A DNA stretch of 64,000 nucleotides from Xiphias gladius (taxonomy: Eukaryota > Chordata > Actinopteri > Istiophoriformes > Xiphiidae): positions 1,908,100-1,972,099 of the forward strand of contig NC_053421.1 of assembly GCF_016859285.1 (NCBI RefSeq). The letters run 5' to 3'. Made by a program: the position numbers and the translations under genes. The notes under the pieces are model-generated. The model was not told the DNA's origin. It saw only the letters and a program-made list of their open reading frames with translations, and did not search any database. This document shows positions 28,375 to 61,408 of this stretch, one piece after another. Position 1 is the first letter of the stretch. Every line of letters begins with the position of its first letter.

Positions 28375-31300
28375 ATGAACAGGAAGAAGGATAAAGGATT
28401 TGAAAGCCCGCGCCCCTTTAAATTATAAGTTCTTTTCTTTTGCCTAAAAAATGATGAAATGGTTTGCATTCATGTTTGATAGTAAAGCAAAGTTAACGTA
28501 AACTTAGCTAACATAACGTCAGCTTAAAAATAGGCAACTCTTGCTTAGCTTACAGACATTAGCGTTGCACGTAAAAAACAGTGAGCATATCTTATCTAAA
28601 TATTGCTGACAGGGAATATATAGTTACGTTCATTGTTCAGATTTACATCATACATTGACTTAATTTTTCTGTCACTGCTTTTACGACCCACCAGATGGTG
28701 TGCATCAACAACATCAACTTCCAGAGGAAGTCTGTCATCGTGAGTACAGCAGTTACAGTATACCAAAAAGTATAAAACGGCTCTCCATGTGTAATATTGC
28801 ACCAAGTAGCCTCCTATCCACTTACTGCACCCTTTGTAATATTATAGTTGACAGTATGAATTGACTGCTTTACAGTAGTGTTCCCTCTTTTCTTTTCCAT
28901 CTATTTACACGTTATACTCATTCAATCACGGGAAATTACCAACTGCATTAAGGATAATTCCTTACTGTATGGAAAAAGTATTACACTTGCAACTTAGGTG
29001 TATTGAACAGTCTTATGATTCATAGTTTTTATTTACTAGATGTAATGCAAATATTATATGTCAGACCTAAGCTTTTATTGTGTTACAGCCCTACAGAATT
29101 GTGTTGTGTTTGGAATATTTTTCAGTGAACAAATTCCTTTATGCAGCTCACCCTGGGGTTCTAATCCAGACCATGAAACAATTTCCGCTAATGATTATAG
29201 TTGTAGTCCATTTTCACCAACTGCTGTCTTTTTTTTTTTTTTTTTTTTTTTTTTTGGCATCCCTTAGGGTTATGTTGAACTGACTATATTCCCCACAGTG
29301 GTCAACCTGAACAGGATCAAGCTTAACAGCAAACAGTGCCGCATTTACAGGGTTCGAGTCAATGAACTTGAAGCCCCATTCATTTACAATGACCCCACGC
29401 TGGAGGTGTGCCACCATGAGTCAAAGCAGTGAGTATATCAGTGTATTATACACAAGCATTGTCTGCTTATTAGATTAACTTTCAGAAAATTGGAAATACA
29501 TTCGGTTGTTACAGTTAAGTGTGGGGTAAGACACTCCTATCTGTAGTAGTAGAGAAAGTATTGGAGAGAAAATGTTTTTATTTTTATTGTCTGCCTACTT
29601 TAGGAGGTATGTATGGTGATGATATTATTTTGTGTAAATGTTTTATGTGTGTCTTTGCAGGAGAAACCTCAACTATTTCTCTAGTGCCTATACAGCAGCA
29701 GTGAGTGCTGTGGACCCTGATGCAGGACATGGGGAGCTGGTCATCAAAGTTCCCTCTGAACTCTGGAAACAAGGAGATGGTAAGAGGCAAAGTGTACAGG
29801 CCACTAACAATTAAAGAGGCTCACAGAGGTCTTTTGCGTTATAGATAATGTGAAGTTTAGAGGATTTGGAGTATAAAACAAGTTATCATTTTGTCAACAA
29901 AAGTCCCACATCATCATCACAAAATTGTTGTAAAAGTCCAAAATTTTAATTCCTTATGACATGGGTTGATATGGTTACATGAGATGGATCACCAAATTTT
30001 TTTAGCACAACTGAAATGAGGTTCAAACCTAATTACATACAGAAATTAAACCATAAGGTCATGGCTAATACACTAATGTTCCTGTTTTTTGTGTCCCTCC
30101 AGATTTGAAAGTTTTAAAGGTGTACATAGAATTTTCCCTGGACCAGCCAAAAGGGGGTCTCCACTTTGTTGTTCCTGATGTGGAGGGCAGCATGGCGGAG
30201 AGAGGAGCTCATGTGTTTTCCTTTGGATACCAGAACTCTACCAGGTATCAAAAATGTGTTTATAATTACCCAGTTTTATAGGAGTTGATTCAGATAAATA
30301 CCTTGTTTTTAAGAGCTGTCCATACATAGACAATGGCAGTTAAAAATTAATTCCAGCAAGAATTAACCATGACATACCGTATATCACCTGGTGGATTGGT
30401 CCGTTTGCTAGCATGCAGTTATAGCCACATTTGAGACAATTTTTGATGCGACATTTAGATCCTTTTTGAATAATTTAAAATTTGGTTGTTGGGTACGTTT
30501 CAGTCTTTGCCCACAGAAATTGAAAGTAAGAACAAGAGTGAAGCATGAACTGTTTTCTAAATAACAGTTGGCAAGTACTCTGTATATACCAATCGGAATG
30601 GTCAACTTTCAGTCTTTTATCTGTCTTGTTTCTGGTTTCCCGTGCTAGAGCATAAGCACAGACTTTGTCACCTTTGCTGCTCATGCTTTTTGTGTCACAT
30701 TTTCTACCTAGTCTAGTAGTTAAAATATTGTCAGCAGTTATCTCCAGCTGTCTTTGTGCAGGGTTTCCTGTTGAGGCCTTAACATTTGACTACCCACTGT
30801 TGAGCAGGCAGGACAGGACTCCAAGCACTATGTCAAACTTTAATGGACTGCTACTATTCTGAAAACTACATGAAAATGAACATGTAATATACCTGTATGT
30901 ATCAATGGATTGGACTCTTATGTTATGGTCATTTAAAAAAATGACTTGCCATAAAAAAAAATTCTATTTACAAAGCATAGCAGAATATACAGCTGAAACC
31001 TTAAAGTATACTGCACTTTCAAAGCAGTCTGACAGACCAAGAATGTAATAAATCCTTGAAAACTTGATGTCCAAACTTATCACAAAGGTGTAACAATCAA
31101 AAATAATCCATTTGTTTTCATTTAGGTGGTCCGATGTTAAGGGGGAAATGTACAAAACATTATTCTTTAAAGTGCTAGATTTCTTACGTCCTCCAACCAT
31201 TGTCTGTTAAATTAAGTAGTAGTATAGACTCTTCCTTGCACTCTAAGCTCACTATCTTCACTCCTTTCTCTTTTGGACATTTCCTGTTACTAACACTTAC

Positions 31301-34300
31301 ACCTGCCTATAAAGGTCAACTAGTAAACCCCAAATAACATTAGGCATTGTATTTATTCGTGTTTTTAGACTATTCTTAAAGCTCATAAGATTGACCTCTA
31401 CCCTAGATTCTGGTTCCCCTGCGTGGATTCTTACTCAGAGCTGTGTACATGGAAGCTGGAGTTTACCGTGGATGCTTCCATGGTGGCAGTGTCCTGTGGT
31501 GATCTGGTGGAGACCATCTACACCCATGACATGAGGAAGAAGACTTTCCACTATGTCCTCCCAATTCCAACAGCAGCCCCTAACATCTCTCTTGCTGTGG
31601 GGCCCTTTGAAATCCTTGTAGACCCCTACATGCATGAGGTGGGTTTATAGTGAACAGTGGTGGGTTTAAATGATGATGTTGCTGCATGTAGTTTGGTATT
31701 GGAAAATGATATCTGTATCATGGTTTTTAATGTCTACTTTGATTATTTTTAGATCAGAAAAAGATACAATGCTGTGATTCATTTTCTGAAAATTTGATTT
31801 TACTTCTATAAAATGAAATAGTAAGCAAAGTATCACTTAAACTTTCTGACCAGTGTTTTCAGTAACACAAAGAACAAGTCAGAGGAGTCAACAACTCAGA
31901 TCATGCAAAGATATCCAGAGAGTCCTTTTCAATGAGCTAAGGAAGTTAGTGTCGATCAACAGAAAGTAAGACGAAAAATTTGAAAAACAGTTCAATATTT
32001 AAGTCATTTACCAAGCCCAGATACACACATTCTCTGGTTCCAGCATCTCAGATGTTAGGATTTGCTACTTTTCTATGTTTTCTATTACTGTAAAAGGAGT
32101 ATCTCTAGGTTTGACCCTTCTTGAATTTGGCCAGATAGTTGCTGCCAACCCACTGGTCACATACATGTGTAGTAAGAGGAAAAAGTGTCAACTACTATAT
32201 TTACTGGGATAATTGCTCAAAAACACTACATAATACAGCCATCTGTAAAACATTATGAGATGGACTAAACTGTTGCTCGCTACAATGTAGTAATAAATGT
32301 AGTCGTTGTAATGTAGTAATATTTAGTCAATCTTTGTATGTTCTAGATGTCCCTAAACACAAGGTGGCAGTATTGACATTAAGGTTTCCTTCACTCCTAA
32401 ATTCCTGCACACACAGACTGCACATTGTAATCACATAACCTTAATTACCCAAACATATTTATTTGATGAATTCATTGAGGTAGAATGTAGTATATGCACA
32501 CCCAGCCTGTGTACTCTGTGATTGTAGTAAATGCAGTAAAGAAATACCAGGGGGACATCCCATGTATTCTATGGTAACTGTCATTAATTTTACAGTTTCT
32601 GTATTTCCCAGACAGTGGTAAGACAGAGGAACCAGAACAGGCAATAGTATTACTGTTGTGCTCTCACTAGAGAGTTAACTTTAATAGTACCAGCTCTCAA
32701 ATGTGAAGATTTGCTTATTTTCTGTTGTTTTTTTTTTAAAATGGAAAATCCTTGGGTTTGAACTTTGTCTTTTTATTATAGATATTTTTCACTTTTCACT
32801 TTTCACTTCCTTTTTCTGACATTTTACAGACTAAACAATTAATTAACAGGTTAGTCAATCATGAAAATAATCATTAGCTATAGCCCTAATTGTATTGGCA
32901 CCATTATCAAAACTTTTTGAAATATAGAAAGTCCCAATTGATAACTAACATTATACTTCGTCTTGTCCCCATACAGGTGACCCATTTCTGCCTGCCACAG
33001 CTGCTGCCACTGCTCAAACACTCCATGTCTTATCTGCACGAGATATTCGAGTTCTATGAAGAGATCCTGACATGCCGCTACCCTTATTCCTGTTTTAAGA
33101 CTGTGTTTGTGGACGAGGCCTATGTACAAGTGTCCTCCTATGCATCCATGAGCATCTTTAGGTAATCATGATATAGTGTGTTCCCCTGCTCCTCTGTCCT
33201 TTCAGGTCATGATGGGATTGGTAGATTTCTTTACTCATGCACATGTTCGTGCAAACCTGTTTTTTGTGTGCAAGAAATAACCAGCTATAGAAACCTTGTG
33301 TGCGTGTGTGCCATTCCCATTCACTCTGAAACTTCAGCTGTTGCCTCTCTGTCTTTCAGTACCAACCTGCTTCACAGTGCTATGATAATAGACCAGACAC
33401 CACAGACTCGCCGCTGTCTGGCCCAGGCCTTGGCTCAGCAGTTCTTTGGCTGTTTCATTTCCAGGATGTCATGGTGAGACATAACTTTTCATAGTTTAGC
33501 AAATGTCCAACCTGAGACATGAGGTCTAGTCCACAAAGTCAGATTTGCTGTTTAGAGCCTGAAACTATTGAAGGTTCCATTGTCATTGGGTATTGGCAGT
33601 GTCAGTCAAAAGACTGCATGACAGTATTTGAGTGCATTTTTCTGCATCTGTCAGGAAACTAAAATAAAACAAAAACAATGCAACAACCAAAACAAAGCTT
33701 GTTACTGCAGAAAGAACCTAGCACTTGTGGCCAATAGAATATCACTGGGTTTGAGATGATAACATCCTATCACTGAAAGATTCCTTACCAATGGTATTCA
33801 CATTAGCTGAAGATCTAATGTCCTTGAAAGAAGCAATGTTTTTTTCTGGATGGATTGAAATCTCTCACTACCAACCTACATCTACTGTATGTCTAGTTTT
33901 TTTTTTTTTCTTGATCATGCATGTCTGAATTCCTGTCTGGACCATCAAACCAGGGTTATCAAGCTCTCTTTTCTTTACATTCTTTACACAATTACTTATT
34001 TCAGTGTTCATTTGACCAACTGAGTGCAACACCATGAATGCCTTCAAGAAGAGACTGTCCAAATATTAACCTCATTTGCATGATTCATCATAGGTATAAA
34101 TAATTTTCTTTTACCTTCAGATGTGATTAGACAACATGTTGTACGAACTAGGTCGTTTGAAGTATTCTGTGACTTTGAGTTTCATGGGGAAAAGGTGATA
34201 TGTGTTCAGCGGTGGACAGATTACAATAAGCTTCAGTGGCCAAATTGGAATTAGTGTTTCGAAGCGTAGTCACATACACAATGTACAAACTATTTTCACT

Positions 34301-37300
34301 GAAGTTAAGGTTGTCACATTCACTCCGTAGTATTCAGGTCTTTTTGAGAATTGTGTTATCATTTAGCTCTCAGATTTTTCCATTAAAGCTGGTGACGAGA
34401 GAGTTACTACAGAACTAAAATATATTTTCAGTACTAGGAGGCACAAGATGGGCCAGCACTGGCCTGAATGAGTGCATTGGCCAATATGATGGATCGCTGT
34501 GTTTGCTGCCTGACAACTTTGCCACTGTGGTTGGTGTGTGTGAGAGACTGAGGGAACAATTCAGGGGGGTTTGCTTGTGTTAAAAGACCCATCAGTAGGA
34601 TTTAAACATTCTAGTGCCTCTAGTGCTGTTCATGTTAAATTCTTGCGTGTCCTTCCTTTACCTCTCATCCTCCATTCTGCTCCTCTCCTTTCCTCTTTTA
34701 TCCTCTCAGACGTCTAAACACGCATCAGATGTGGGACCTTGGTTTGCTAATGTTTTGAGCTGACTGGTGTGTAAGAAAAGACCTAAGGAAAGTCAGTCAG
34801 ATCTCTTTGATTTTAGCAAAGCATGGTGATGCCTGCTAGCAATTAATCAGAGTGGGGGTTAACTGTGGCCTGTAATTGAAAACAGGCTGTGCTCCGTAGC
34901 CTGTCAAACGTATACAGTTAGGCACATAAGTATTTGGACAGTGACACAATTTTCGTAATTTTGGCTCTGTACACCAACACAATGGATTTGAAATGAAGCC
35001 AAAAAGATGTGATAGAATTGTAGACGTTCAGCTTTAATTCAAGGGGTTTAACAAAAATATTGCACTAACCGTTTTATTAATTACAGCTATTTTTATACAT
35101 AGTCCCTCATTTTCAGAAGCTCAAAGATAATTGAACAAACTATTAATTAAACAAATTAAAATACTAGTGTTATTTTTGGTATAGTATTTTTTTTTTTTTT
35201 TTTTTGATACTTGGATGAAAATCCTTTGTATTCAAAGACTGCCTGAAGTTTGGAACCCATGGACATCACCAAATGCTGAGTTTCCTCCCTTGAGATGCTT
35301 TGCCAGGCCTTTACTGGAGCCGCCTTTAGCTGCTGCTTTTTTGTGGGTCTTTTGCCCTGAGTTTTGTATTCAGAAAGTGAAAAGCATGCTCAGTTGGGTT
35401 GAGGTCAGGTGACTGACTTGGCCAGTGAAGAATATTCCATTTCTTTGCCTTGAGAAGCTCTTGGGTTGCTTTCGCAGCATGTTTTGGATCATTATCCATC
35501 TGTACTGTGAAGCACCGTCCTATTGGTTTTACAGCATTTGCCTGAATCTGAGCAGATAGTATAGCCTTATACATTTCAGAATTCATCCTGCTACTTCTAT
35601 CGCAGTCACATCCTCAATAAACACCAGTGACCCAGTTCGATTGGCAGTTGTACATGCCCATGCAATAACACCATGTCAGACACATGATGTGTTATGCTTT
35701 GGATCATGAGCCGTTCCTTTCCTTCTCCATGCTCTTCTCTGTTCCTATCATTCTGATCCAAGTTAATCTTGGTTTCATCTGTCCAAAGAGTCTTGTTACA
35801 GAACTGGGCAGGCTTTTTAAGAGGGTTTCTGGCAAAGTCTAATCTGGCCTTACCAAATTGTTGATTTGGCCACTCTTAAAGTTTCTGCTGTCTGATAGGT
35901 TTTTATTGTTTTTTAGACAAATGACGGCCTCCTTCATTTGCATCGACACCTCTACGGACCCGTATTGAGAGTTCTGAAGGTTTTGTGTTTTATCATACTT
36001 TTCCAAGCCTGAACTTGGGACTTCATTTAAAGAAAGGTTCCGGTGGTCTGTGAGGTTGAGATCACAAAAGAAAGGAAATTCCACAATTCTTAAATAGCAG
36101 ACATAATATGATCCATAGACAGTGTAGTAGAGCAAAGTGTGGATCAAATCAAGTAAATTACTTCTCTCCATAATGTTGATTATAGCAGATACAAAGATCA
36201 AATCATCTATATTACATAAACCAGACGGGATTCAGTTCAGCTTCAAGTGGTGAAACCACCAAGGTTGAATCAGCATGTTGTCTCTTTTTTTTTTACAAGC
36301 TAATAAATCCAGGTTAAATAATGAAAGTTTTGAATGCCATGCCAAGTTCCTTCCAAGAAATACCCTGAGGGTAGAATTCACTATTACAAAGTGATGAAGC
36401 AACTCAAGAGTGGCCTTAAATGCTTTCCAAAGGTTTTCCACTTTGAAAGAGCCTAAGCGAATGTGGGAAAAGGATTAGAAAAGTCAAACTGAAAGGGATT
36501 TTATCGTCAAACTCTGTTTCAAATGATTTAGTTTTGTAACTCTGTGTAATTTATTTTGGCAGGATTGTTAAGTAGCTTGCCACTTCTCGTTGCCATATAT
36601 CTGATGGTAAACAGAGTCTGTACAAAGTCTGAATGATTGCAAATCTGAAGTTTATTCACTTCAAAATAAATGAATGGACAGAAACTATGGAGTTAAACTG
36701 CAGTCATATTCATTCTGAATAGGTCGTGGAAAGGTTGGAGATTTACCATAAATCTTGCAGGGAATTAAATTCACCCATAATGATTCATTGATATTTTGTA
36801 ATGTTTTGTACTTTGGAAGCCTAAATTGCCATGACATAATATTTTGTTTCTTCTCAAGGGCGGATGAATGGGTGTTGAAGGGAATCTCAGGTTACATCTA
36901 CGGCCTCTACCTGAAGAAAACCTTTGGAGTCAATGAGTATCGGCATTGGATAAAAGAGGTAATAGTTTTTTTTTCAAATGTTTTTTCTCTGTTTGTCCTG
37001 TCATAACACTCAGATTTTTCCCCCTAGTAAATTGGTCAGCAGAGCTGGTAATAGCTGCCCAACTGCTGCAGTTAGGCTATGATTAGAATGGGGTCTAAAT
37101 TGTGGGTGCTAAGTTTTTCTTAGAATTGATCAGAGCTGGAACAAGTCCTTGGTTTATTGATTAGTTGATCAGGAGAAATATAATTGGCAACTATGTTGAT
37201 AATCGATTACTTGTTTCAGTCATTTTTCAAGTAAAAATACTCAAAAATTGCTAAACATTCTAAGGTTCCAGCTTTTAAAATGTGAAGATTTACAGCTTTT

Positions 37301-40017
37301 CTTTGTCATCATTTTTAACTGAATATCTTTGAGTTTTGGACATCTGAAGATGTCACCTTGGGTACTCGGAAGTTGTGAGGAGCGTGTTTTTCACGGTCCA
37401 TTAGATATCAGTTAACTTTTTTAGTTGTTTTTTAAAGCCAAAATACCAAGCATTTCTTGGTTAAAGCTTCTCAGTTGTGATGATTTTTCTGCTCTTCTTT
37501 ATCATAACTAACATGCGCTGAATATTTTTGTGACTGTTGGTCGATTAAAACAGGCAATTTGAATACATCATCTTGGGCTATAGGAAATTATAGCAGGCAC
37601 CTTTCACAATTTTGAAAAATAATCGGCAGATTAATCAATGATGAAAATAATCTTCGCAGCCCAAGAAATGATGTGCATAGTGTATCTATTTATATACATG
37701 ACTGCATTTAAACTAATCATTCACTATTATAAAAGCTAATTTACTGAGCTTTCACAAATGTTATATACATATTATTTTGTTGTTAAACAGGAGCTGGATA
37801 AGATTGTGGAGTATGAACTAAAGATGGGAGGGGTTCTGTTGCACCCAACCTTCAGTGGAGGCAAAGAGAAAGACAAGTACTAAATTTAATTTCAATTTCA
37901 ATCCCTGTGCATCGACAAGTAATTTTCTGGATCACACTAACTGAACTTTTTTCTCTTCAGTCCAACTCCACACCTTCACTTCTCCATCAAGCACCCACAC
38001 ACATTGTCCTGGGAGTACTACAAGATGTTTCAGTGTAAGGCCCACCTGGTGATGAGATTGATAGAAAACAGGATAAGCATGGAGTTCATGTTGCAGGTCA
38101 GGCACAACAAGCATTTTCTTGTCTTTTCTGTCTCTTTTTCAGAATTGGGTTAACGACGTAATAAAAACTGCTTTAGTCTTTATTTTTTTTCTTTTTCTGC
38201 TGTTGACTTTGCTGCCCTCCTTTTAGGTTTTCAACAAGCTCCTGAGTCTGGCTAGTACAGCCTCATCCCAGAAATACCAGAGTCACATGTGGAGCCAGAT
38301 GCTTCTGTCCACTCACGCTTTCCTCAAATCCATCTCCAACGTTTCTGGCAAAGACATAGGCCCGCTCATCAAACAATGGGTGTATCCTTTATCTGTAATG
38401 GATCTGTTTGAAAACAAGCAGTCGGAGTGACCATTGAGTCCTTAGAGGTCCTTCATGCCCTGTTACACTCAGAGCTTTAGAAATGGATTTATATCCTTGC
38501 CCTGATGTATGCCTAGCCATAAAACTTTATCTCAGATGTCTACAGAGATTTCCTTGGACATGGTGTTTTTTTTTCTTAATGTACGGTGTGATTAGCATGA
38601 CATTAGATACATGGGTGTTTGTCTTTATAAACTATTACCAGTCAGTCCAATTTGCGAAAAATTCTGAAATGTTTTCATCAACGGTTATTGAGTGTAGATT
38701 GTTGGGTAAAAGTGGCAACTTTATTCATTTAAAATTAAATCTACAACACAATAAAGTGCTAAAAGTGAAGGGGTCTGAATACTTTCTGAAGCCACTGTAC
38801 AGTATATATTAACAATGGGGTCTCACCCGGGAAAAATCCTGCCACTCAGATGACGCCAGCTGTGCCTGCTGCATGCATTCGAAATTAGGGTGAACAAGCC
38901 CATTAAAATTAAAATAAACAAAAATGGTAAATGTCATCATCAAGGCAAGCGCACATAGAAATTTTTGCTAAACATAGATTGACATAACAAAATTTGATAC
39001 TCAAGGGAAATCATATTTCTTGTTTTCAGGAAACATAATATAGATTATAATTATCAAAAGTGATTAAAGCTGATCAAACAGCATAAACAACAATTAACAT
39101 TAAATGGAGTCATACAGAATATACACAAGGGAAATGTGCAACAATAAAGAAGAAAGGAAAAAATTAACACATTTTAACAAGAAATGGCTTTCCTAACAAG
39201 AAGACGTAATTTACAAGAAGAAATTATTAGAAAAGTTTTTAACAATGTTTTAAAAATAACTTTTTACGAATAATTCTTAACAAATTTGGAAACCTGACAC
39301 TATGAGAGTTTTTACCTTTTCATCATTTGCTCTTGAATTGAAAAGTCAAAACTTGTAAAGTCATGTAAATGTCATTAGTAAAAAATATAACTTGTCAGGC
39401 AGATCTGAGCACCACCTCTCTCTCTCTACTGGTTATGTTCACCCCAACTTTTCTTGGTCATCTTCATATATCTTAACTTTCGGTATCCAGAGATCAGAGT
39501 GGTGTGGTGAAATTCTTTGGAAGTTTTGCCTTTAACAGGAAGAGGAACGTGCTAGAGCTAGAGATCCGTCAGGACTACACATCATCTGGAACTCAGAAAT
39601 ATGTGGTAAAACCTTAAGATACAGTATGTGGAATGAGTCTGTTATCTGTGTTTAGACTAAAAGTCATGTATATAACAGATAAAGAAGCCAAGAATGTGGC
39701 AGATCCCATGTCTGAAAGGGGCTAAAAGAACTATTACATGTATCATCAAAATCCTGACCCACTTCATTGGTTCACACAGGATTTGGACTTTTTTCTGATA
39801 AATAATCTGATGTATATTTCCCTGCAGGGTCCCATCAAGGTGACAGTGCAGGAGCTGGATGGGTCCTTCAATCATACACTGCAGATAGAGGAGAACAGCC
39901 TCAAACATGACATCCCCTGCCACTCCAAGAGCAGACGGTACATACTACAGAAAAACACACTAGTTCATTCTCTCATGATTAGTGAATTTTGCATACTTAA
40001 TATTTTATTATATTTAA

Positions 40018-40050
<33 letters not shown>

Positions 40051-40064
40051 GTGCGTGTGCGTGT

Positions 40065-40122
<58 letters not shown>

Positions 40123-43100
40123 GTGTGTGTGTATATGTGTATTTATATGCATATGTGTATTTATATATTGTATGTGTGAATGAGTGTGTATATATATATA
40201 CATCCTGTGTGTGTGTGTGTGTATATATATGTTTATGTTGGTAAATTGTTTTTAAATGATAAGCAATGTGATAATATATTATTTGCTGTGAGTATGTGTT
40301 TGCTGTGATATTGTATCATAAAAGTAGTTTTCATACATTATTTCCAGTATATGACAGCCAGTGTCTGTGAGTTAATTTAAATCTTAAAGTTGACATGTTT
40401 TTTTCCTGGTTCTACCTGATATGTTGATGTTTTCAGTCTCTACTGTAGCTTTGGTGTTTGTTCCCTCAGTTCACTTTTGTCTACTCTAGTGTAACAGAAA
40501 TATCAATGACAAATAGTTTTTTAAAAAAGTGAATGAATGTGCCCGATGTTGGGCTTTAGTTTTGGATTTTCTAATCGCTAATTGTTCTGTTGGTTTCTTT
40601 TCTCAGAAACAAGAAAAAGAAGATCCCACTAATGAACGGAGAGGAGGTTGACATGGATTTGACAGCCATGGAGTAAGACATTACTGCTGTCACTGTTTGC
40701 TGTCTTTAGTAAATTTACTTGACTATATCCACGATTCATATCATTTATACCTTGTTAAAATTGAGTGTTGTGTGAAAGCACTATAGATCTCTGGGAACTA
40801 TTTTCTACATGTACTTACAGGTACCTGTTTGAGTTGAGTTGAGGTACTTTACATCTCTTTCCCTTAATGTGTCCCTCTATCTTCTTTCCTCTGCAGTGCT
40901 GATTCTCCTCTCCTCTGGATCCGGATTGACCCAGACATGTCCATTCTGAGGAAGGTGGAGTTTGAGCAGGCTGACTTCATGTGGCAGTATCAGCTGCGCT
41001 ATGAGAGGGATGTAGTTGCACAGGTAGGCTAATGACAAGAGTATAGTTTTCCACGGTGGCTTTGTTTTTAAATTTTTTTAAATCACTAACTTGTTTTTGT
41101 ATGCATATACATATGTGTCGGCATCACTTAAGAACTCTGTTCAAAAAATTAACCAAAAACTTAATTTTTGTTGGTTTCTACAACATTATCTCTAATATTT
41201 TGTCTTTTATTTTTTGTGTTTCTGGTAAACATATTCTCCTTTGAATATGTTTTTGTTTTATCTGTTGGTCGCTTTTTACTGAGAGTTTTTAAACAATCTT
41301 ACTCTTGGATTTTACAACCTTGCCAAATATGCCCTATGAGGACTGTTTGGTCCTTCAGAAACCAAAGAGAAAGATCACTGACATTAAGGACTATAAAGAA
41401 AGAAAGTCTCCCTTCTGTCCAGCACCATAGATGTAGCAGCAGGGCAGTCCAAGCGTGTTGCCTCTCTCAGTGCAGCCATCGAGGACACAGCCCTGTGGGA
41501 TCCCTCCACTTGTCCCTGGCATTCCTCCTACTCGACACTTATACATCAGTTGTCTTGGGCCGTAGTGGTGGTCCACGGTCGAAAGAGACACTCAGATAGG
41601 GCTGCCTCACCCCTTTGCCTAAGCCTCTCCAACCACAACCCTGTCAGACGACACTCCGGGTTTCCCAGCTGATGCTCCTGCGGTTCTGACTGAACCCCGA
41701 CAAATGCCTCTGGTAGTTCTCCCCCGTAGTCCAGTAACTGCTACCATGCAACCTGGACTTCTCTCTAGCTGCAGCCAGTGCTGCTGTCTGCTCTCCACTT
41801 GTTGCTGACACAAATCTGGCAGCAGTCAATCATGGGAAAGCTGAAAAAGGATGAGGTAGTTCCTCCTCTCTTTGCAGGGTTCTGAGGAGGCTGTGATAAG
41901 ATGGTCTGCTCTTTTAAAAGGGTAAACAAAATCTTCTTTACATAAAACGCACCAGTGTCCCATCTCCAATCACTATGTGTAAACTGGCACCCCTAATTGT
42001 GAGGTCTCTCTCAAATAAGAATTTTATTCTAAATGAGTTTATCCCTTCCACCCTCCTAGATTTCTTGTTCTTCACTGGAACTTGTTTGGAGTTTGGCGTA
42101 TATAGCCGGGTCTTAGAATTATGTTCTCCAGATTATGACTTTTCTAGCTCACCCAGGTTTAGTGAATGTGGTGGGGTATTGCGGTCATTTTTTAAAAAAT
42201 TACAATATTATTTACATTCCCATTCCCATTGATTCTACTGTTAACAACATTTTTTATGTTTAAAACAGGTGGTACAAATCCATTGCTATGTGTAACTGAA
42301 TTCTCTGAGTATTTATTACCAATTGTTTTAAACTTTGACAAGATTTTAATCTTTGGGAATTTTAATTTTTATGTGGACACTCAATCCAATGCCTCTGCTG
42401 CTGAATTTCTTGGAACCATGGACTCTTTTTTTTAACTTTACTCAGCATGTTGCCAGCCCAACTCACAACCGTGGCCATACCTTTGACTTAGTATTCAGGT
42501 TAGGTTAGACCATTGCCTCCCTAGATATGGACGATTTGGGTGTCTCAGACCATCAGTGTGTCAGGTTCTCCACCCTGTTTCATAATGTCCCCAATTCTCA
42601 AATACCTGTTTGTTAGCTTTGCTCTATAAATATTTGTACTACAAGTAATTTCTCAGGTGCTGACAGAGCCTCCTCTCTATTTAGTAGTATTAAGACCCAG
42701 CCCTTTCAATTGAGCACTGAACAGTTGGTCACAAAGTTTAAGTCTGTTGACACATCTTGAGACTCTGTTGCCCCTCTGACAGTCAAAAACCCAAGAGCCA
42801 AACTACAGCCATGGCTGAACAACGGCACCTGTGCTCATAGGGAAATTTGTAGAAAGGCTGAATGTAAATGGAAAAAAGATAGATACAGGTACAGATTTCA
42901 TATGAGATACTGAAAGGCTGCAAATTACAAGCAATCTGTCAAAGTTACGAAAGCAAAATATTTTGCCACCATTCTCACCAAAAATTCCCACAGCCCTATA
43001 GTTCTGTTCCACACAATTAATTCAGTTGTCAAAACTGTTGCTGCTACCTGTCTTGAGGTAACCACAGCCATTTGTATGGACTTTTTAAACTTTTTCTCAA

Positions 43101-46100
43101 CAAAAATTTATAACATACAATCTAATATTTCCCCGCCCACCCAAGATCCCTCTCCGGTGCCTGCCTGCTCTGCTATCTTCAGTGTCTGTCAGCCTGTCTC
43201 TCTATCCCACTTTTTTGATAGAAATTCTCACACAAAGTCCACCACCTGTCCCCTGGACATTGTTCCTACGTACTTTGTAAAGGAAGTATTGGACACTAGG
43301 ACCCTTAGTTCCGCTGATTATAAACAGCAGTCTTGCAAATTGAACTGTCGCATCCTGTTTTAAACATGCAATAGTCCACCCTCTTATTAAAAAGCCTAAC
43401 CTTGACAAATCAGACCTAAATTATTTTTTGCCCCACCTCTAACCTCCCATTCCGGTCCAAAGTTCTGGAGAAAGTTGTCTATACATAGTCTCTGTCCTAT
43501 TTGGACAGTAACAACATCATGGAGAAATTCCAGTCAGGCTTCAGGGCTTGTCATAGCATAGAATCACCTCTTCTCAAAGTCTCAAATGACCTACTGATTT
43601 CTTGGTAAATGTGCCATTTTACCTTTAGACCTCAGTGTGGCTTTTGACATGGTTGATAAGTGCATTCCTTTAAACCGCCTCAAGGATGTGCCCTCTAGTG
43701 GTTTGCATCATACTTAATAGAAAGATCTTTCTCTGTTAAGATTCTGAGTTTCTCCTCCTCTACTGCCCTTATCACTTGTGGAGTATCTCAAAGCTCCATT
43801 TTAGGGCCTTTATTTGATTTGTTTATGCTCCCTTTGGGGTCTATCTTCTGCAAACATGTCTCTTTTCACTAGTACACTGATGACATGCAAATATACTTAT
43901 TATTGAATCTAGGGGATTCCACTGTCACATTCAAACTTAAAGGCCTCCAGGATGTGAAAAGCTGGATGGCTAACTGTCTTCAGTTGAGCGACACCAAGAC
44001 ACAAGTGATTGTTTTTGGTTCCCCTAACACCACAGGGATTATAGCTAGCCACCTAGGACCATTGACACTGAACCTTCATGCCCATGCCAGGAATCTTGGA
44101 GTCATTTTTGACTCAGCACTGAAATCTGAAAAACAGATCAACTCTGTGGTGAAAGGTAGCTATCTTCATCTGAGAAACATTGCTGAAACTGAAGTCCATC
44201 CTACCTCTCAACTACGTGAAGACTGTAACCACTGCATTAATCTCCTCAAGGCTGCATTCTTGGAACTTTCTGTATCTGAGTATTAGCTAGTCCTCTTTAT
44301 CTCACCTGCAACTGATGCAGAGTGCTGCAGCGAGACTCCTAACCTGTGGTACCAGAAAAAGAGACAGCATTACTCATTCCTTTTTATTAGCCAAGAGTAA
44401 TTGATGATGTACATTTTCAGAAGCTCAAAAGTAATTGGAAAACAAACATCAGACAGATGGCAGAATTTTGAGGAAAGGCCAAACAATTTTGTAAATTCTT
44501 AAAATAGAGGAAAGCACTGATGAGCAGAGGCAACACCAAAAGACCTGGAAGACCACGGACAACAACAAAAGTGGATGATTAGAGTTTTTTTCTTGGTGTA
44601 GAAAAACCCTTCGCAACATCTAGCCAGGTCAGGAACAATGTTGAGGAGGTAGGCGCATCATTTTCAAAGTCTACAATGAAGAGGTGCCTTCATGAATGTA
44701 AATACAGAGGGTTTGCCATAAGGTGGAAACCACTGGTAACACTTAAGAACAGAAATACAAGATTAGACTTTTGCCAGAAAAAGTCTAAAAAAGCCTGCGC
44801 AGCTCTGGAACAAGATTCTTTGGACAGATGAAACCAAGAATAACTTGATATAACCAGAATGATGGGAAGAGAAGAGCATGGAGAAGGAAAGGAATGGCTC
44901 ATGATCCAAGGCATTACCACATTATCTGTCAAAACATGGTGGAGGCAGTGTTATTGCATGGACATGTATGGCTGCCAGTGGAACTGGGTCACTCGTGTTT
45001 ATTAATGATGTGACTGCGATAGAAGTAGCAGGGTGAATTCTGAAGTGTATAGTTCTATACTATCTGCTCAGATTCAGCCAAATGCTGCAAAACTGATAGG
45101 ATGGTGCTTCACAGTACAGATGGTTAATGACCCACAAGGCAAAAGCAAGGCAAAGAAATGGAATATTCTTTAATAGCCAAGCAAGTCACCTGACGTCATC
45201 ATAACTGAGCTTGCTTTTCACTTCCTGAAGACAAAACGGAGGGAAGAAAGACCCACAAATAAGCAGAAACTGAAGGCAGCTGCAGTAAAGCCCCGGCAAA
45301 ACATCTCAAAGGAGGAAAATCGGCATTTGGTGATGTCCATGGGTTCCAGACTTCAGGTGGTCATTGAGTGTAAAGGATTTTTTTTCAAAGTATTAAAAAT
45401 AATCCTTAAATTTATAATAATGTTGGTTTGTCCAATAACTTTTGAGCCTATGAAAATGAGGGACTATGTATAAAAATGGCTGGAATTCCTAAACGGTTGA
45501 TGTGAGAGTTTTATTAAACCCTTTGAATTAGAGCTTCAATCATATCTGAATACCTTTGTTTCATATCCATTGTGTTGGTGTACTGCGGCAAAATTACAAC
45601 TGTCCAAAGACGTATGGACCAAACTATATATGTAGCAGCTTCTCAATTTGAGTGTTGCTGTCACTGGTTAAAGTCAGATACATTTAATTAACATTTCATA
45701 CTGTATATTCTGGTGCTCTTTTCATTTGCAGGTTGTAACTAAGGATTAATTTGGCTGTTACTATATGCTGTATATGTGTGTCTGCTTTCTTAGCCAACCA
45801 AAGCTGATTAGACATATTTGAGTTGGTGTTCTTTTAGCCTTTAGTTAATTGCAAAGGTTGAGTGTTTACCATATCTCTCTGCTAGGAGGAGGCTATCTCA
45901 GCGCTGGAAAAGTTCCCAACCCCCGCCTCCAGACTGGCTCTGACTGACATCCTAGAGCAAGAACAATGTTTCTACAAAGTCCGGATGCAGGCCTGCTTCT
46001 GTTTGGCCAGGGTATGTGTATACGTGTGCCTGTGTGTGTGGATGTGTGTGTGTGTGTGTGGATGTGTGTGTGTGTGTGGATGTGGGTGTGTGTGGATGTG

Positions 46101-49100
46101 GGTGTGGGTGTGGGTGTGGGTGTATTTCAGCAACAATGGAGCATAAGGGTTTTGAACAGTGACATTTATAAAACAAAGCCTCTGGGCAGCAGCTTGGCAT
46201 AGCTAAGGAAGAACATTACTGAATGAACATGTGACACTACAGGGTGTATTCATGTGACCTACAATCAGTTCACCACACAACATTTGAGGGGAACTCTGGT
46301 GTTTGTATCATAGGTACACCCTTAATATAAATACAAGTCACCACTATTGTCACTAAAGCTTTATTTATACTTCAGCAAAAAACTTACTACATGATGCAAA
46401 GATAATAGTTTTGACTTCAAGCTGACAAATTTTGAGTGTCAGCAATTGGTGTCACATACTTGCTTTTTTCATATGTAAGGCACAACTGTAACTGGATGTG
46501 GAATCTGACTAGAATATGGAGGCTGATGGCAAGATGCTGGACTGATGGGAGTTCAGTAGTGATTGATTTACACATGGTGTGGATAGAGTAGATTATCAAA
46601 AGGTGAAAATTAATTTTCCCTAATATTCCCAAAATCAGCTTGGTCTTGGTCATACGGCCACCTTCTCTTCATCTTCTTCAAAATAAATATGCAACATTCG
46701 GTTATGGTCTACTGTTTCTGTCTTTGAATGAAAAGTTTCTCAGCTCCTCTTGATATCTGGTTGCAATGATAATGAGTGTACTGTCACTGAACTATTAACA
46801 GAGCTCCTCTGTTGTTTATACATGTCACATGGTACCTTTTCACTGAAGTATAAATGAGCCTAATTTCCACAAAAACAAATGATCTAAACGATTAACAATG
46901 TAAGGTCTTGAACTTGGGCCTTCCAAAACCTGTGGTTCCAGGTGGCCAAGATCTGGTTTTGTTTTGGTTCTTTGCTGTGACTCATTAAATGTGTCAGAGG
47001 TTACAAAAATCGGGTTTATGTTGTGGAACACAATCTTGAGTGTGTTTCAAATGGCTCTGGAATTAACTTCAAATGGCAATAAAAATTATTGAAAGTAATA
47101 TACAGAAAGTCACAAAATAGGAACGGATGTAGAATATATATAGAAGTAAGCTTGGCAAAAGTGGAGTGAGACTTGAGGGAGAGATATGAGGAGTATGTGG
47201 GAGGATTAGTAGATCAAAGAAAACGGGGAAAAGAGGAAAGAAAGTAAGGCTTTAGGGTAGTCAGAGAAATTAAGGTTTGGGATGTTTGGACGAATGATTC
47301 ATGGTGAGAGGAACAAAATAGAGAAAGTCGTTCAGTTTATAGCGAGGCACTGAAACTAGAGTGAGTCAGTTCTGTTTTGAATTTGTGTCAAAAATTTGAG
47401 ACAAAACTTTTTCATTTGCAATGGTAGATGAAAGCATATTGCGCATAACTTGTGTTCCTCTATCTACTTAGTATTTTGGTAAAATTTTTACAAAATCTTT
47501 AGTGGAAACAATATTGTGAAAATAGCTACAGTATTATAACAAAAGATAACTTCCAAGCTAGCATGGCCACCCGTCAGTTTAACCCTTGCTGCACTTAAAC
47601 TCAGTTGACTGAATAATCCTATTCTGTAGCTACAGGAAATTCTCCCTTCTCTGGATTTGGTCTGTTCCAACTTTAAACCCACTGGATTTCCGCCATTCCA
47701 TTCCACCTGAAACAATATTTTCACAACATGATAAACTGAGTGGAGGCTGAAATGGCAGCACTTCACGTCTTTCATTAAATTGCCGTGTTGGTCTTTGGTA
47801 TATACTATACTATACTATACTATACTACTACTACTACTACTACACACACTCACCAACTCACACACTCACCAACCCACACACTCACCAACTCACACACTCA
47901 CTCACTCTTAACATGCACATAAACACATGCATTCACAGACTTACATACCCACACTGACCACAAAGTGAAATATGACTGACTTTAACCCTCAGATGGACTT
48001 GGCTGCATTATGATTGGTTGGGACAGCATGTAATTGCTGGTTTTTGGTAAAAAAAAATGTGGGAAGGAAGAAGGAACAACCTGGAGCTGAAAATCATGGG
48101 GAAAGACACATAAAAACTGACAAATGCATGCATATGTTGAAAAACTGACACACAAAAATTAAAGACGTGTTCGTGAATGCATGCATGCACACATACAGGA
48201 ACATTCCGGTGTGCACACCCGCTCTATTTATCTAACCAAATGACAACATCCTGTGCCAGTGACCCTTAGCTCTTTATTACCACATTAACATAAATTCCCC
48301 AATATCCTGTTAGAACTCAAAGACCACTGGAGCCACTGGTCTTCATACCTATGGAAACCTCATGAGCTGCTCATGTGCACTTTTGAATTTTACATTGTAG
48401 TTTAGTTTTCACTGCAAAAGTTATAACAGGCAGAAAGGACATTCTTATACCACTTACAACATTCTTGACTTGTCATTTGTGTGCCATACAGTATTTCTTA
48501 AATAACTACTACAACTTGTGTGTAGTTTATACTTCTGTGTGCATTTTACATTTCATATGCTTTGCAGAAATCTTGAATCTAATCCTAATATTTTACTGTA
48601 ATGACAGCAGACCGAGGACAGCTGGCAGATGTTTTCCACCACATGCTGCAACTTGAACTGAATTGAATTAAGTAATTGAATGACTTTCACTGTAAAATTG
48701 TATTAATCTGTTCTCGTTGGTGCATGCAAACCTTGTAGATAGCCAATGCCATGGTGAGCACATGGCAGGGCCCGCCAGCTATGAAGTCCCTGTTCACCAG
48801 AATGTTCTGCTGTAAAAGCTGTCCCAACATTGTCAAGACCAACAACTTCATCAACTTCCAGAGCTACTTCCTGCAAAAGGTACATCAAATAAACAAAATG
48901 CACTGGCAGGAACAAACAGTTTAACACACAATACTTCACACTAACAGCGTCGTTAGCTGCCAAGCCGCCCTCAACAGACTGTACAACCAAACTTGAACTC
49001 TTATTCAAGGCCTTATTGTTGGTCTTACAAGAAGGCCCAACAGGTGTATCAGAATGGCTGATACCTCTGTCTGATTTTAGCTTATCACAGATATACTGCA

Positions 49101-52100
49101 TCAGTACTGGCGTTTATATTTGCTGATAAGAAACCAGAGTTTTGTGTAGGTAAATACCACAAATATGTTCTGAGTTCATTTATAAACAGTGTTACTATTA
49201 CATATATTGTTCACCAGACAGCCCTGACAAGTTTATTTTTCAGCTGTTCTAATGTTCCACTTAGAACAACCTTACGAAAAATGTTTTTTATGTGCATGTT
49301 AAAAAGCAAATAACAAATGATGTATCACTCAAATCAGCCTCAAATTTCCAGCATTGGTTGTTTCTATGTAAAAGGCCAAGCACTACAATAAAACACATTG
49401 TAAAGCTGAGCTTTCAAATTATGTTTTTTTCATCTTTTTCATAGCAGAATCATATCATGACTGCTGTTTCATCTTTGTTTTCCATGTCAGACAATGCCAG
49501 TGGCCATGGCGTTACTCAGAGATGTCCAGAACCTCTGTCCCAAAGATGTCCTCAACTTTATACTTGACCTCATCAAGTATAACGACAACAGAAAAAACAA
49601 AGTAAAGACACACATTTACTCACTTTAACTCTAACAAAGTAACTCTTAAAGACTTAAAGCAAAAACAAACAAATACATATACCGTATTTATCATGACGAT
49701 ATTAATAGGAGTCATGAACATGAGTGATAAGAAGGCTTCTTTTGCCATATTAAAAACCTAAAAAAATTTTTTTAAATTTTGCTATTTTATAGATGCCAAA
49801 AGTAAATCTTTGGCCCCAATGGTCAGCATCCACAAAGAGGGATTTTAATTTTTCTTTCATTTCTTTTTCTCTTTCCTTTCTCCTCCTCTCCCTCTTGCAT
49901 GTCTTCAGTTTTCAGATAACTACTACCGTGCAGATCTGATTGAAGCACTGACCAACTCTCTGACCCCAGCCATCAGCATCAACAATGAGGTGCGGACAGT
50001 GGACAATTTAAATGCTGACGTCCGTCTCATCTTGGAGGAGATCACCCGATTCCTCAACATGGAGAAACTCCTGCCTAGCTTCAGAAACACCATCACTGTC
50101 AGGTACACAGTAAAATGTGTTCCTGTATATGTTTATGGATGTATTCCTAAAACATGTTCTCCTGGCAGCTCTTCATATCAGTTCCACATGACAAAATAAT
50201 TTAAAAATGCTGGCATGTTGCTTACTATTCGTAAGAGAGCCTGATAAATTTGTTGTAAAGTTTTCTCTGTTCCAATGTCCAAATAAAAACTGAATTTGGT
50301 CTCCTATATAACAAATAAAATAGTGTAGTATGCAGTGATATGGGGAAGGGTTCAAACCTATTTTGACCACTGAATAACTAGAAGTGCTTGTTGTTGTTTT
50401 TTTTTAATTTATGTTGGAGTTGCAGATATGGTAGACACATTTCAATGAAACTATAATGCAAAATATATAAAATGTCTTTATTTGAAAAAGTTTTCATGTC
50501 CTCTGCCTGTAAGCATCAATGGGAATTTCAGAATATAAGGTCAATCTTTGCCATGTTTCTCCTCGTGTTTAAATTATTCATGTCTGTATTACTTGTTTTT
50601 CTTACATTTCAGACAGACATCTGTAGGCAGCATAACGTTTAGCTTAGCATATGTAGGAAACACCAGGTTAATGAAGTCAGTGGATGATAAAGATGAAGTC
50701 TTAGGATGTGAGGATTCTATCATTTATTTCTCATTTACGAAGCAAAAAGCTCATTTTGGTATTATCTAGACATAGGAAAAGGCTCATAGCCTCTTCTATT
50801 TTCTATTAGTCACCTTCCTGAGTTCCTCACTCACTTTACTGTCCTCCCCCTTTTTCTAGCTGTCTGAGAGCAATTCGTCAGCTTCAGAAGAATGGCCATA
50901 TTCCCAGCGACCCATCACTCTTCAAGTCCTATGCTCAGTATGGACACTTTGTAGACGTTCGCATTGCTGCACTGGAGGCTCTGGTGGACTATACAAGAGG
51001 TAGGACATTTAACACAAGTGTGTTAGCTGTTGTTATTATATTTTATATTATATTATTATTAGTAGTATTCTTATGGAGCTCGTTGATCTAGCTCACATGC
51101 CCCTGGAGATCAGCATTAGTGGCTCTTATATTAGTCTTTAATCAGTCGGAGTCTGTTATAAGTTTGGGGAAACCAATTGAGTTGGATAGAGCATAGTATT
51201 CATAGTATGTGTAAGGTACTTACTGCTGAGAGTTTTCCTGTAAATACCCAGATTTTTTAAATAACCACATCAGTACAAACTGATTTTAACCTATATTTTG
51301 AATCCCCAACATTTTACACTTAAAAAAAAAAAAAAAAATTAAACACATTATATTTATTTGCATGTGGGACTGATAGGACGAGGTCTGTTTGCTGCCATGG
51401 GCCAGATCCCCTAGATAAGATGCCAGTAAGTGTATAAGTAGGACATGATAATTGTTTTTTGTTCTCTAGTTGAAAGAAGTACAGCAGACCTGCAGTGGCT
51501 GCTCATCATGGTCCAGAATGACCCAGCTCTTTATGTCAGGTCAGCTAACACCTAGCACATACTTGCTGCTAGTGCACATATGCACTCTTTTAACACATAT
51601 TCATGCCCTACATTACAATGTCCTTGTCTCAAGGTTTTTTTTTCTTATTTTGTATGTCCTTACATCTCATCTTCTCAAATTTGTTGGCAGTTCTGTCATA
51701 CATTTTACTATTACATGGCAACAATATGGCCAGAATATGAGAAAAAAGTTTACTAATGGTCTGATGTCTGTTTACCTCAGGACCAATGGAATTTAGCCCT
51801 ATATGGAATGTTAGCACATATGGAATGTTAGTTACATGTTAGCACTTTTGTCACACCGTCTAAGTAACATGGTTATAAAATTTTAAATGGAAAACAGGCT
51901 GTGTCATCAAAAATCTTTAAAGGTTTAATTTTAAAGTAAGAGAATGTCACTGCCAAATTTCACCTCAAATCAAAGGTGTTTTTGATTTGTAGTGGTAGTT
52001 TATTTTACCTTCTGGATAAGTGATCATGCATGGTTGTTATTCAAAGAAGGCTGTAGTTAATGTTAAATAACTGAACAGTTGACACACAAACAGCTATTGT

Positions 52101-55100
52101 GGGGGTTTCCATCTTCTTTCTTATTTTTTGCTTGTCTAAATTTTTTTGTTTGTTGTCCAATCAGACATAAGATCCTGGGTATGCTATGTAAGAATCCACC
52201 TTTCACAAAGACAACAGACTCTGCTCTCTGTAATGAAGCGCTGGTCGACCAACTCTGGAAGCTCATGAACTCAGGTGAGGCGCATGCACACACACACACG
52301 CATGCACGCACTTCTATCTTTGTAAGGACACTAATTGAAATAATGCATTCCCTAGCCACTTACCATAACCTTAATCATCACAACTAAATGCCTAACCCCA
52401 AGCCTTACCATAACCCTAACCTTAAGGTAATTGTACCCTGAATCCTAAAATAAGTTTTAACCCTCAAAAAGTAGTCTGGACCCATGGGGACCTCAATTCT
52501 GTCTAGACGAGTGATATGAGTCCCCATGAGTTAGTGTGCATTCAGTTTAAAGTCCCCACCGGGATATAAAAAAAAGCCCACACAAACATATACATGCGCC
52601 TGCACTCTTTATGAAAGGCAAGATAAAAAATCCTTGTGTGTCACTGAGTCTGTCAAGCTGTCCTACTCACGCCTGCACAGAAATGATTATAAACTTTTAT
52701 TGGACTGATAGAAATTCAGCAGGCTGTCACTGTAGCATTGTATGTGTAGTGTATCAGTGTGGTTTGAGGAGCTCGTGACAAGATATGATCCAGCCATTTC
52801 TAAATCCTTCACATCATTGTTGATCAGATGCAGTGGATGGCTTTTTGAGGGTGTGGTGAATGAAGCTGTGCAACTGTGACATCAAAACAAATGTGGCACT
52901 TGATTCCAGTTTTTATCTTGCCATTTTCCTGCCAAATTTAATTGTCTTTTCCGACAGCCAGTAGATAAAGAAAAGGACAGTGCATCACCTTCTGATCTGT
53001 TAGTACTAACTGAGCTGTCTTTTAGCAGCTCAGATGGTGAAATTCTCTCATTACTGTCAAAATAAGTTTTTATGATGGGAAAGAGTTGTTCAACACTAAA
53101 GCTTCAATTATACTACCTTGCGGATGCACACATTGATAGCTGCGGACACCATGGCCCAAGCTGTCCTTGGTATAAGTCTGCTTGGAGTCCGCTTGGTGCA
53201 AAAAATGCGCAGTTGGTGCCCTTGTAGCATCATACCAAATTGAAGGGACTCGGATGTCCGCAAAGAGTCTTGTGTACACTCTGATGACTTTACGTCACTC
53301 GCCTCACATACTTGTGGATGTGGAAAGTATAACACTAGCCTAAGGCTGCACATGTCTCATTAGGTTTGGGGATATACAATATTGGATTCAAAATGCATTA
53401 GATGATTAATAGGTTTTGGACAGTTTCTTTTTGGCTATTTCACTCAAGAACAAAATACAGCTTAGCTTTTTCCACTGCTCTTATGAGGACTCTTAGGATC
53501 TAATCAAAACTAGGGAAAATTATACTGATGAGAGTCCGGTTAATGCACGTTCAGTATTTATTATGTTTTCGGGTTGTCCATCCGTCCATTCGTCTGTCCA
53601 TCCTTCCCATTCTCGTGAACGTGTTATCTCAGGAATGCCTGGAGAGATTTTCTTTAAATTTCGCACAAATATTCACTTGGACTCAAGGATGAACTGGTTA
53701 GATTTTAGGGGTCAAATGTCAAGGTCACTGTGACCTCACAAAACACTTTTTTGGCCATAACTCAATAATTCACACACTAATTGTGACAAAAGTTGACACA
53801 AATGTCTAATTGGATAAAACGATGAAGTGATGACATTTTATATCCAAGTGGTCAAAGGTCAACTTCACTGTCACATCATAATGTTCTCCAAAAACACTTT
53901 TATAGCCTTTATTCAACGCCACAACTCAGGAACAGAAGGGTAGGGTTGTTACCAAATTTCCTGCACCTTGTCTGGCGTAGACATATAGCCACAAGGCAGT
54001 AATTTTAGTTCTTGCAATAAGTGCTCTCACAGCACTATAACAACTAACACAGTGCCTGCAACAGAACCAAGAAAACTTTTTATTCACTCATATTTCCTTG
54101 GTTTCACCCAGCAAAAAGTTTAAGTAAATCCATTTGAGCTAAAATTCATTTTCCTTGTAGACAAAACATAATGCAGCAGAGACCTGTTTATGTTTGTATG
54201 TCACCTTAAAAGAAACTATTTAATCCTGATGATCGACATTTTCTTACTGTCTAGCAAAACCAGCAGTGCCTATTCACCATTGTACTGGAAAACTCTAAAG
54301 CACAATATCCTCCACAACAGGAGCCAGACTCATTTTACCAGTTCTCTTCTGGTTAAACTGGGGTTTCATACATCTGAGGAGATATTTCAAAAGCTACTGG
54401 TGTTGCCTGAATGTTTTCAAAAACAACAGTGGCTTCAGAAAGTTCTAACAGCCCTTCCAAATTTTGTTATAGCATGGCATGTCATGGACTTGATTTAAAG
54501 TTGTTTTTTTTTTAAAAACTTCTAAAGCATTGAAAGTTTCTAATAGCACAGTTGGCTCCATCTCTGTCGTAGAAGTTTGGAAGCACCAGGGCTCCTTGAG
54601 CTGCCAAACTCAGTAACCAGGCAGGAATGGCTTTGGTAACTGAAGTGACCAAGAACCCAGCAGGGTTTCCATTGACAGAGATCAAAGAAAAGCTAGTTTA
54701 CCACCACCCCTATACTGCCTCTTTCATGGGTCTATTTTTTTATGCCTGCTTATTCAGTTCATATGATTTTTGTTCTCTATGTTGTTTAGTAGACAGAGAG
54801 AATCACATACATTGCTCCAGTGTCTATTCCAACTAAAGTCCCTTACAATAAGAATATAATCAGACACTATAATCAGACACGGTACTCATGTCTCTTAGAT
54901 AAATTTATCCATCATTTCATAAATTCAGCATCTGTATCAGCAAGTATCACGTTCTCCATGGAGGTAATTACAGTAGATTCATTGGCTGAGAGGGTGCTTC
55001 AAAAGAAATATTGAGCTCCCAGTCTTTTCCTTTCATTATTATACAGTTGTTTCTTCCAATCATGCTTTTTGATGCAGTGCTTCTACCTTATACTTACGTG

Positions 55101-60546: not shown

Positions 60547-61408
60547 ATGGCAAGAGGAAAAGATCTTAGTGACTCTGAAAGAGGGTTCATTGTTGGGGCA
60601 TGGATTGCAGGACATTCAGTCACACAGACTGCTCAACTGGCTTTTGTTTCAATAGGAACAGTGACTGAAGTGACATCTGCATTTAGATCTAGGGGAAAAA
60701 CATTAGTTAATAGGGTCAGACACTTTGGTCGACATTTGATGACCATGATGCAGGTGCATTAGTGTGATATGTCAGGAAAAACAGAAGAGCAAATCTCGCT
60801 CAGATGAGAATATCTATCCAGGACATGATCAGACTGTGTCAGCAACAGACAATCAACAATTACATAGAGAGGGATATTATAGTAGGGTTGCAGTGCATAA
60901 ACCCCTTATTGTTATATGCACCAAGAGAATGGTACAGGCCTGAAGGCTTGACCCTTACAGTGAGGGGACCCGGTGGCTCTGTTATGCTGTGGTGGGCATT
61001 TTGCTGGCAAGTGGGTCCACTTGTCCCCCTAGAGGGAAGGGTCACTGCAAATCACTATAAAGCTGTTCTGAGTGATCACCTTCATCCTATATTGAAACAT
61101 TTCTGTCCTGACGGGAGTGGTCTCTTCCAGGATGACAATGCCCCCATCCATAGGTCACGAGGGGTCACTGAATGGTTTGATGAGTATGAAAATGATGTGA
61201 ATCGTATGCTATGGCCTTCACAGTCACCAGATCTCACTCCAGTTTAACACCTATGGAAGATTTTGGACCAAATGTGTTAGACATCGTACTGCACCACCAT
61301 CGTCAAAATGGTGTCCATCCCTCCAGTAGAGTCCAGAGACTTGTAGAATCAATGCCAAGGCGCAATGAAGCTGTTCTGGCAGCAAGTGGTGGCCCAACAT
61401 CTTACTAA
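60547..61408 (+). mobile_element. Tc1-like transposon remnant
   Basis: The plus strand encodes the transposase start (MARGKDLSDSERGFIVGAW, then GHSVTQTAQL as the helix-turn-helix), a decayed middle and a good C-terminal half: GGSVMLWWAFCWQVGPLVPLEG, QDDNAPIHRS with the second catalytic Asp, [11 protein letters not shown], and SMPRRNEAVLAASGGPTSY near the end. Frame shifts and stops at about 60,760 and 61,247 break it. The first catalytic Asp region is missing. Terminal repeats are not clear. Confidence 0.88.

Follow-up and report, generated by a model that had tools for sequence, protein, structure and literature searches.

A probable U2-type AT-AC intron between exons 1 and 2 of Xiphias gladius taf2

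The taf2 locus

The window analyzed here, a 64,000-nucleotide stretch of the Xiphias gladius genome (contig NC_053421.1), contains a taf2 gene whose identity is confirmed along its whole length by the TFIID subunit 2 of Phycodurus eques (P0001), which is 89% identical over 100% of the query. A preliminary description of this DNA had proposed a 27-exon frame closing at 1,213 codons; the 27 exons are found, but the frame obtained has 1,196 codons. Open joins around exons 24–25, among those listed, give anything from 1,139 to 1,196 codons, and the choice of C-terminal exons is therefore uncertain. The features of the gene that concern us are the following.

28375..58272, plus strand: taf2 coding region, from the first codon to a single terminal stop, the C-terminal exons being less certain than the rest
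28375..28424, plus strand: coding part of taf2 exon 1, 16 residues plus two of the three bases for a Leu
28425..28684, plus strand: taf2 intron 1, with AT-AC ends and in phase 2, as placed by junction enumeration and signal scores
28425..28430, plus strand: intron 1 5′ splice site, with the sequence ATAAGT, which from +2 to +6 is the same as GTAAGT
28655..28664, plus strand: candidate branch site of intron 1, TTGACTTAAT, assigned by eye
28661..28684, plus strand: pyrimidine-rich tract and 3′ splice site of intron 1, TTTTAC
28685..28739, plus strand: taf2 exon 2, placed by junction enumeration and signal scores
38382..39490, plus strand: taf2 intron 12, GT-AG and U12-type by its signals, GTATCCTTT ... 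TATCTTAAC ... CAG

The limits first proposed for intron 1 are exact: the interval is 260 bases long, its first six bases are ATAAGT and its last six TTTTAC, and the exon 2 sequence, which begins GACCCACCAG, follows directly. The region has one match in the 691-Mb genome, which is itself. Residues closely resembling those encoded by exon 1 open the public protein models P0001 to P0004, and are also present in the human TAF2 PDB chain from its residue 11.

The window contains several other recognizable elements. A mir-138 microRNA precursor lies at 11214–11284 on the plus strand (its score of 72 bits exceeds the gathering score, 50), and open reading frame fragments that by eye resemble Tc1-type transposase are present at 35326–35613 (minus strand), 45009–45473 (plus strand) and 60768–61247 (plus strand). 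Within the taf2 introns, CA/GT-type microsatellites at about 39990–40180 and 45960–46130 are seen as repetitive open reading frames.

Joining of exons 1 and 2 and the class of intron 1

All possible donors between 28378 and 28460 were combined with all acceptors between 28600 and 28734, with the end of exon 2 set at 28739. This enumeration gives 11,205 pairs, of which 3,735 are in frame, and 1,319 of the in-frame pairs are free of stops. There is not a single stop-free in-frame GT-AG join among the 11,205 pairs tried, and only one stop-free GC-AG join, which costs 19 residues. The best join score, 168, is common to an AT-AC intron at 28425–28684 and a TA-CG intron at 28426–28685, and these two placements, the second a one-base slide of the first, are the only ones that restore the conserved sequence K-L-T-H-Q. 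The window was also aligned to human TAF2 with introns limited to GT/GC-AG, and the resulting spliced gene model was rejected; it is forced to carry an in-frame TAA at the exon 1–exon 2 junction. The preliminary description had held that ATAAGT...TTTTAC is the sole intron that leaves the conserved N-terminal coding free of a stop. This is loosely worded, as what constrains the join is the conserved protein together with plausible intron ends; its further claim, that the join yields Lys-Leu-Thr-His-Gln, holds.

Over its first 128 residues, the protein that results from this join aligns to residues 1–127 of the human TAF2 PDB chain with an E value of 1.3e-72, and the joined stretch departs from that chain by one inserted Gly and two residue changes (F/Y and M/V). 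Alignment to the more distant Taf2 chain in 6hqa, which we take to be that of a yeast, is weaker, with FKIAHQ where the window has FKLTHQ. Both alignments run across the K-L-T-H-Q joint, which therefore belongs to a conserved part of the protein. With equal base frequencies, the chance of finding ATAAGT and AC at one of the two placements that the protein allows is about 2 × 4^-8, or approximately 3e-5.

The splice signals were scored with position weights derived from the 24 other U2-type introns of taf2 (introns 1 and 12 being left out), ignoring positions +1 and −1. The AT-AC donor ATAAGT scores 3.32, above 8 of the 24 other U2-type donors, and the AT-AC acceptor scores 4.99, above 10 of the 24 acceptors, so that both are inside the range of these introns. 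The TA-CG donor scores −6.67, above none of the 24, and its acceptor −3.20, above one, and the TA-CG placement is set aside on these signals in spite of its equal protein score.

Introns of the U12 class are defined in one account by a conserved donor and branch site (PMC3584512). The taf2 introns were therefore also scored against the U12 consensus. The intron 1 donor, ATAAGTTCT, does not fit the U12 donor consensus [AG]TATCCTTT, matching it at 4 of 8 positions from +2 to +9, a level reached or exceeded by 7 of the 25 other taf2 introns. Likewise, its match to the U12 branch site is 6/9, and 15 of the 25 other introns do as well or better. Intron 12 has all 8 donor matches at +2 to +9, in agreement with [AG]TATCCTTT, and a branch site, TATCTTAAC, that matches a TTCCTTAAC-like consensus at 7 of 9 positions about 15 bases from the intron end. 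The branch match of intron 15 is also 7/9, but lies 30 bases away, and its donor has only 3 of 8 matches. These signals support the assignment of intron 12 to the U12 type, and the GT-AG U12 intron that the preliminary description had placed in the same gene is therefore recovered here.

By its splice signals, intron 1 is a major-class intron. A U2-like AT-AC intron is supported as the best reading of the exon 1–exon 2 junction, and its excision by the major spliceosome is predicted. The U2-like class was part of the preliminary description, and it accords both with the range of the 24 U2-type introns and with a figure legend in which human TAF2 intron 1 is independently named as a major (U2-type) AT-AC intron (PMC8280824); the claimed structure is right, and the class assigned to it very probably so.

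TAF2 models of other vertebrates

Models of other species were drawn from the 120 best among 428 proteins, together with four more from a second search; 50 of these 124 were picked as vertebrate. The second search, made with residues 18–75, returned 47 proteins, the four additions among them, and yielded no further read-through models. By pattern match, the K-L to T/N-H-Q join is present in 14 of the 50 vertebrate models, including those of the largest clusters, P0029 (1,413 members), P0002 (92) and P0003 (53). In a further 10, T-H-Q or T-N-Q follows directly on some other sequence, and in every one of them the residue just preceding exon 2 is Thr. Neither pattern is seen in the remaining 26, most of which are truncated or started differently, with several repeating one species or lacking the region; P0041, counted here, reads KL-AYQ and could pass as a diverged join.

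The Thr in the second group is informative. As the intron is in phase 2, the residue preceding exon 2 in a read-through is encoded by the last two bases of the intron and the first base of the exon, such that Thr indicates an intron ending in AC, where AG would give Ser or Arg. These 10 entries span five genera: Oncorhynchus (six entries, three species), Boleophthalmus, Zosterops, Sphaerodactylus and Varanus. The Zosterops and Varanus models are fused to an upstream gene, and the intron contributes to them just this Thr, with perhaps a single further residue. The evidence from these protein models is indirect, but it points to retention of the AC end of intron 1 in fish, birds and lizards.

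The exon 1–exon 2 junction is a likely trap for gene annotation. By the pattern used, the expected join is absent from 36 of the 50 vertebrate TAF2 models, which have other preceding sequence, shortened starts or fusions. Several of these 36 are from a single species, however, and in some the region is missing for other reasons; the join is also present in the largest clusters. Several public models, P0016, P0036 and P0118 among them, are fused to an upstream gene (Pfam PF09724), presumably DSCC1, which implies that this gene is a neighbor of taf2, upstream of the position equivalent to 28375. The first 385 residues of P0118 have no match in the window by tblastn at 1e-3, and this gene must therefore be farther off, or the gene order must differ, in this fish. 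Positions 28695–28697 (plus strand) encode Met in this fish and Val in 13 of the 14 joined vertebrate models, creating an in-frame ATG immediately after the AG at 28694.

Alternative readings and relation to known AT-AC introns

That AG can also be read as the end of a GT-AG intron at 28429..28694 (plus strand), with exon 1 reduced to a short upstream open reading frame ending in TAA and translation starting at ATG 28695, which would yield a TAF2 shortened by its first 20 residues. The two dinucleotides are indeed there, the score of the acceptor is 3.62 (above 7 of the 24), the in-frame ATG follows at once, and in four of the 26 public gene models with neither pattern (P0014, P0022, P0047 and P0118) exon 2 begins right after the Gln, at the matching place; one of them, P0022, is a named Pelobates isoform and starts with MVVCI. 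This arrangement nonetheless seems very unlikely, as its donor scores −3.50, below all 24 other donors, and it discards residues that are conserved to human and retained in the 14 joined vertebrate models. Less probable again is that intron 1 is a U12-type AT-AC intron excised by the minor spliceosome, even though this genome has genes for the U12 and U4atac RNAs, with one match each, and AT-AC ends are far from equally shared between the classes: in Table 2 of PMC7367187 they occur in about a quarter of U12-type introns in both zebrafish and human, but in only 0.02% (zebrafish) and 0.01% (human) of U2-type introns, a rarity that the preliminary description had rightly stressed. The donor is ATAAGTTCT and not ATATCCTTT, its 4 matches to the consensus compare with the 8 of intron 12, and the human orthologue is classed as major (PMC8280824, figure legend).

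An assembly error or a rare allele that altered both ends of an ordinary GT-AG intron is the least probable of these alternatives. It draws on the fact that the case is built on the assembled sequence, yet two independent changes would be needed at exactly the two terminal bases, the AC end is implied in the five other genera, and an AT-AC intron is named for human in the same legend (PMC8280824).

We consider it highly likely, then, that intron 1 of taf2 in this fish is a U2-type AT-AC intron, removed by the major spliceosome and orthologous to intron 1 of human TAF2. What is observed is the sequence, its reading frame, the conservation of the protein and the scores of the signals; we infer that this species splices at these sites, which snRNAs take part, and, from the agreement in gene, intron number and class, that the intron itself is orthologous. 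By the scheme described for AT-AC introns, ATAAGT would be recognized by U1 and then by U6 through pairing at +2 to +6, with A at +1 and C at −1 taking over from the two G bases normally paired in the second splicing step, after which exons 1 and 2 would join as K-L-T-H-Q. The divergence of these vertebrates dates back roughly 400 million years. It is probable that TAF2 intron 1 has retained its AT-AC ends across ray-finned fish, birds, lizards and mammals, a rare pair that single changes would easily break being fixed over that whole time; A at +1 and C at −1 may be mutually locked, and splicing at the closest GT-AG alternative would cost the protein its conserved N-terminus.

What these observations add is modest: sequence support that one more vertebrate has an intron of this rare type, along with indirect signs that its ends have long been conserved. 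No principle of splicing is overturned. A single transcript with both a U2-type AT-AC intron and a U12-type GT-AG intron would, however, be a handy single-gene control in tests of minor-spliceosome loss.

The AT-AC intron 1 of TAF2 is already known from human, and the fish case is thus not new. Our literature search, with most subscription journals outside its scope, found among the papers listed no report of a TAF2 AT-AC intron beyond PMC8280824, such that earlier reports are possible, and only an unrelated preprint on TAF2 and non-canonical splicing. On major or U2-type AT-AC introns as such, it found one further paper, a study in plants. In the CENATAC study, human TAF2 intron 1 and SYCP2 intron 5 appear as major (U2-type) AT-AC introns in RT-PCR assays, contrasted in the same panel with a minor AT-AC intron of IPO5 (PMC8280824, Fig 5E legend). 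Of these, TAF2 intron 1 is apparently orthologous to the fish intron, the two having the same gene, intron number, class and ends in different species, with the human class taken from the legend and not from sequence. SYCP2 intron 5 is of the same intron class but in a different gene. Other U2-dependent AT-AC introns have been described, reportedly in voltage-gated sodium channels. These, to go by the title of the study (Wu and Krainer 1997), combine AT-AC ends with major-class snRNAs, as predicted for fish intron 1, although in other genes. The likeness of fish intron 1 to the U12-type AT-AC introns extends to the AT-AC ends. The donor of those introns is ATATCCTTT, a sequence that fish intron 1 does not have.
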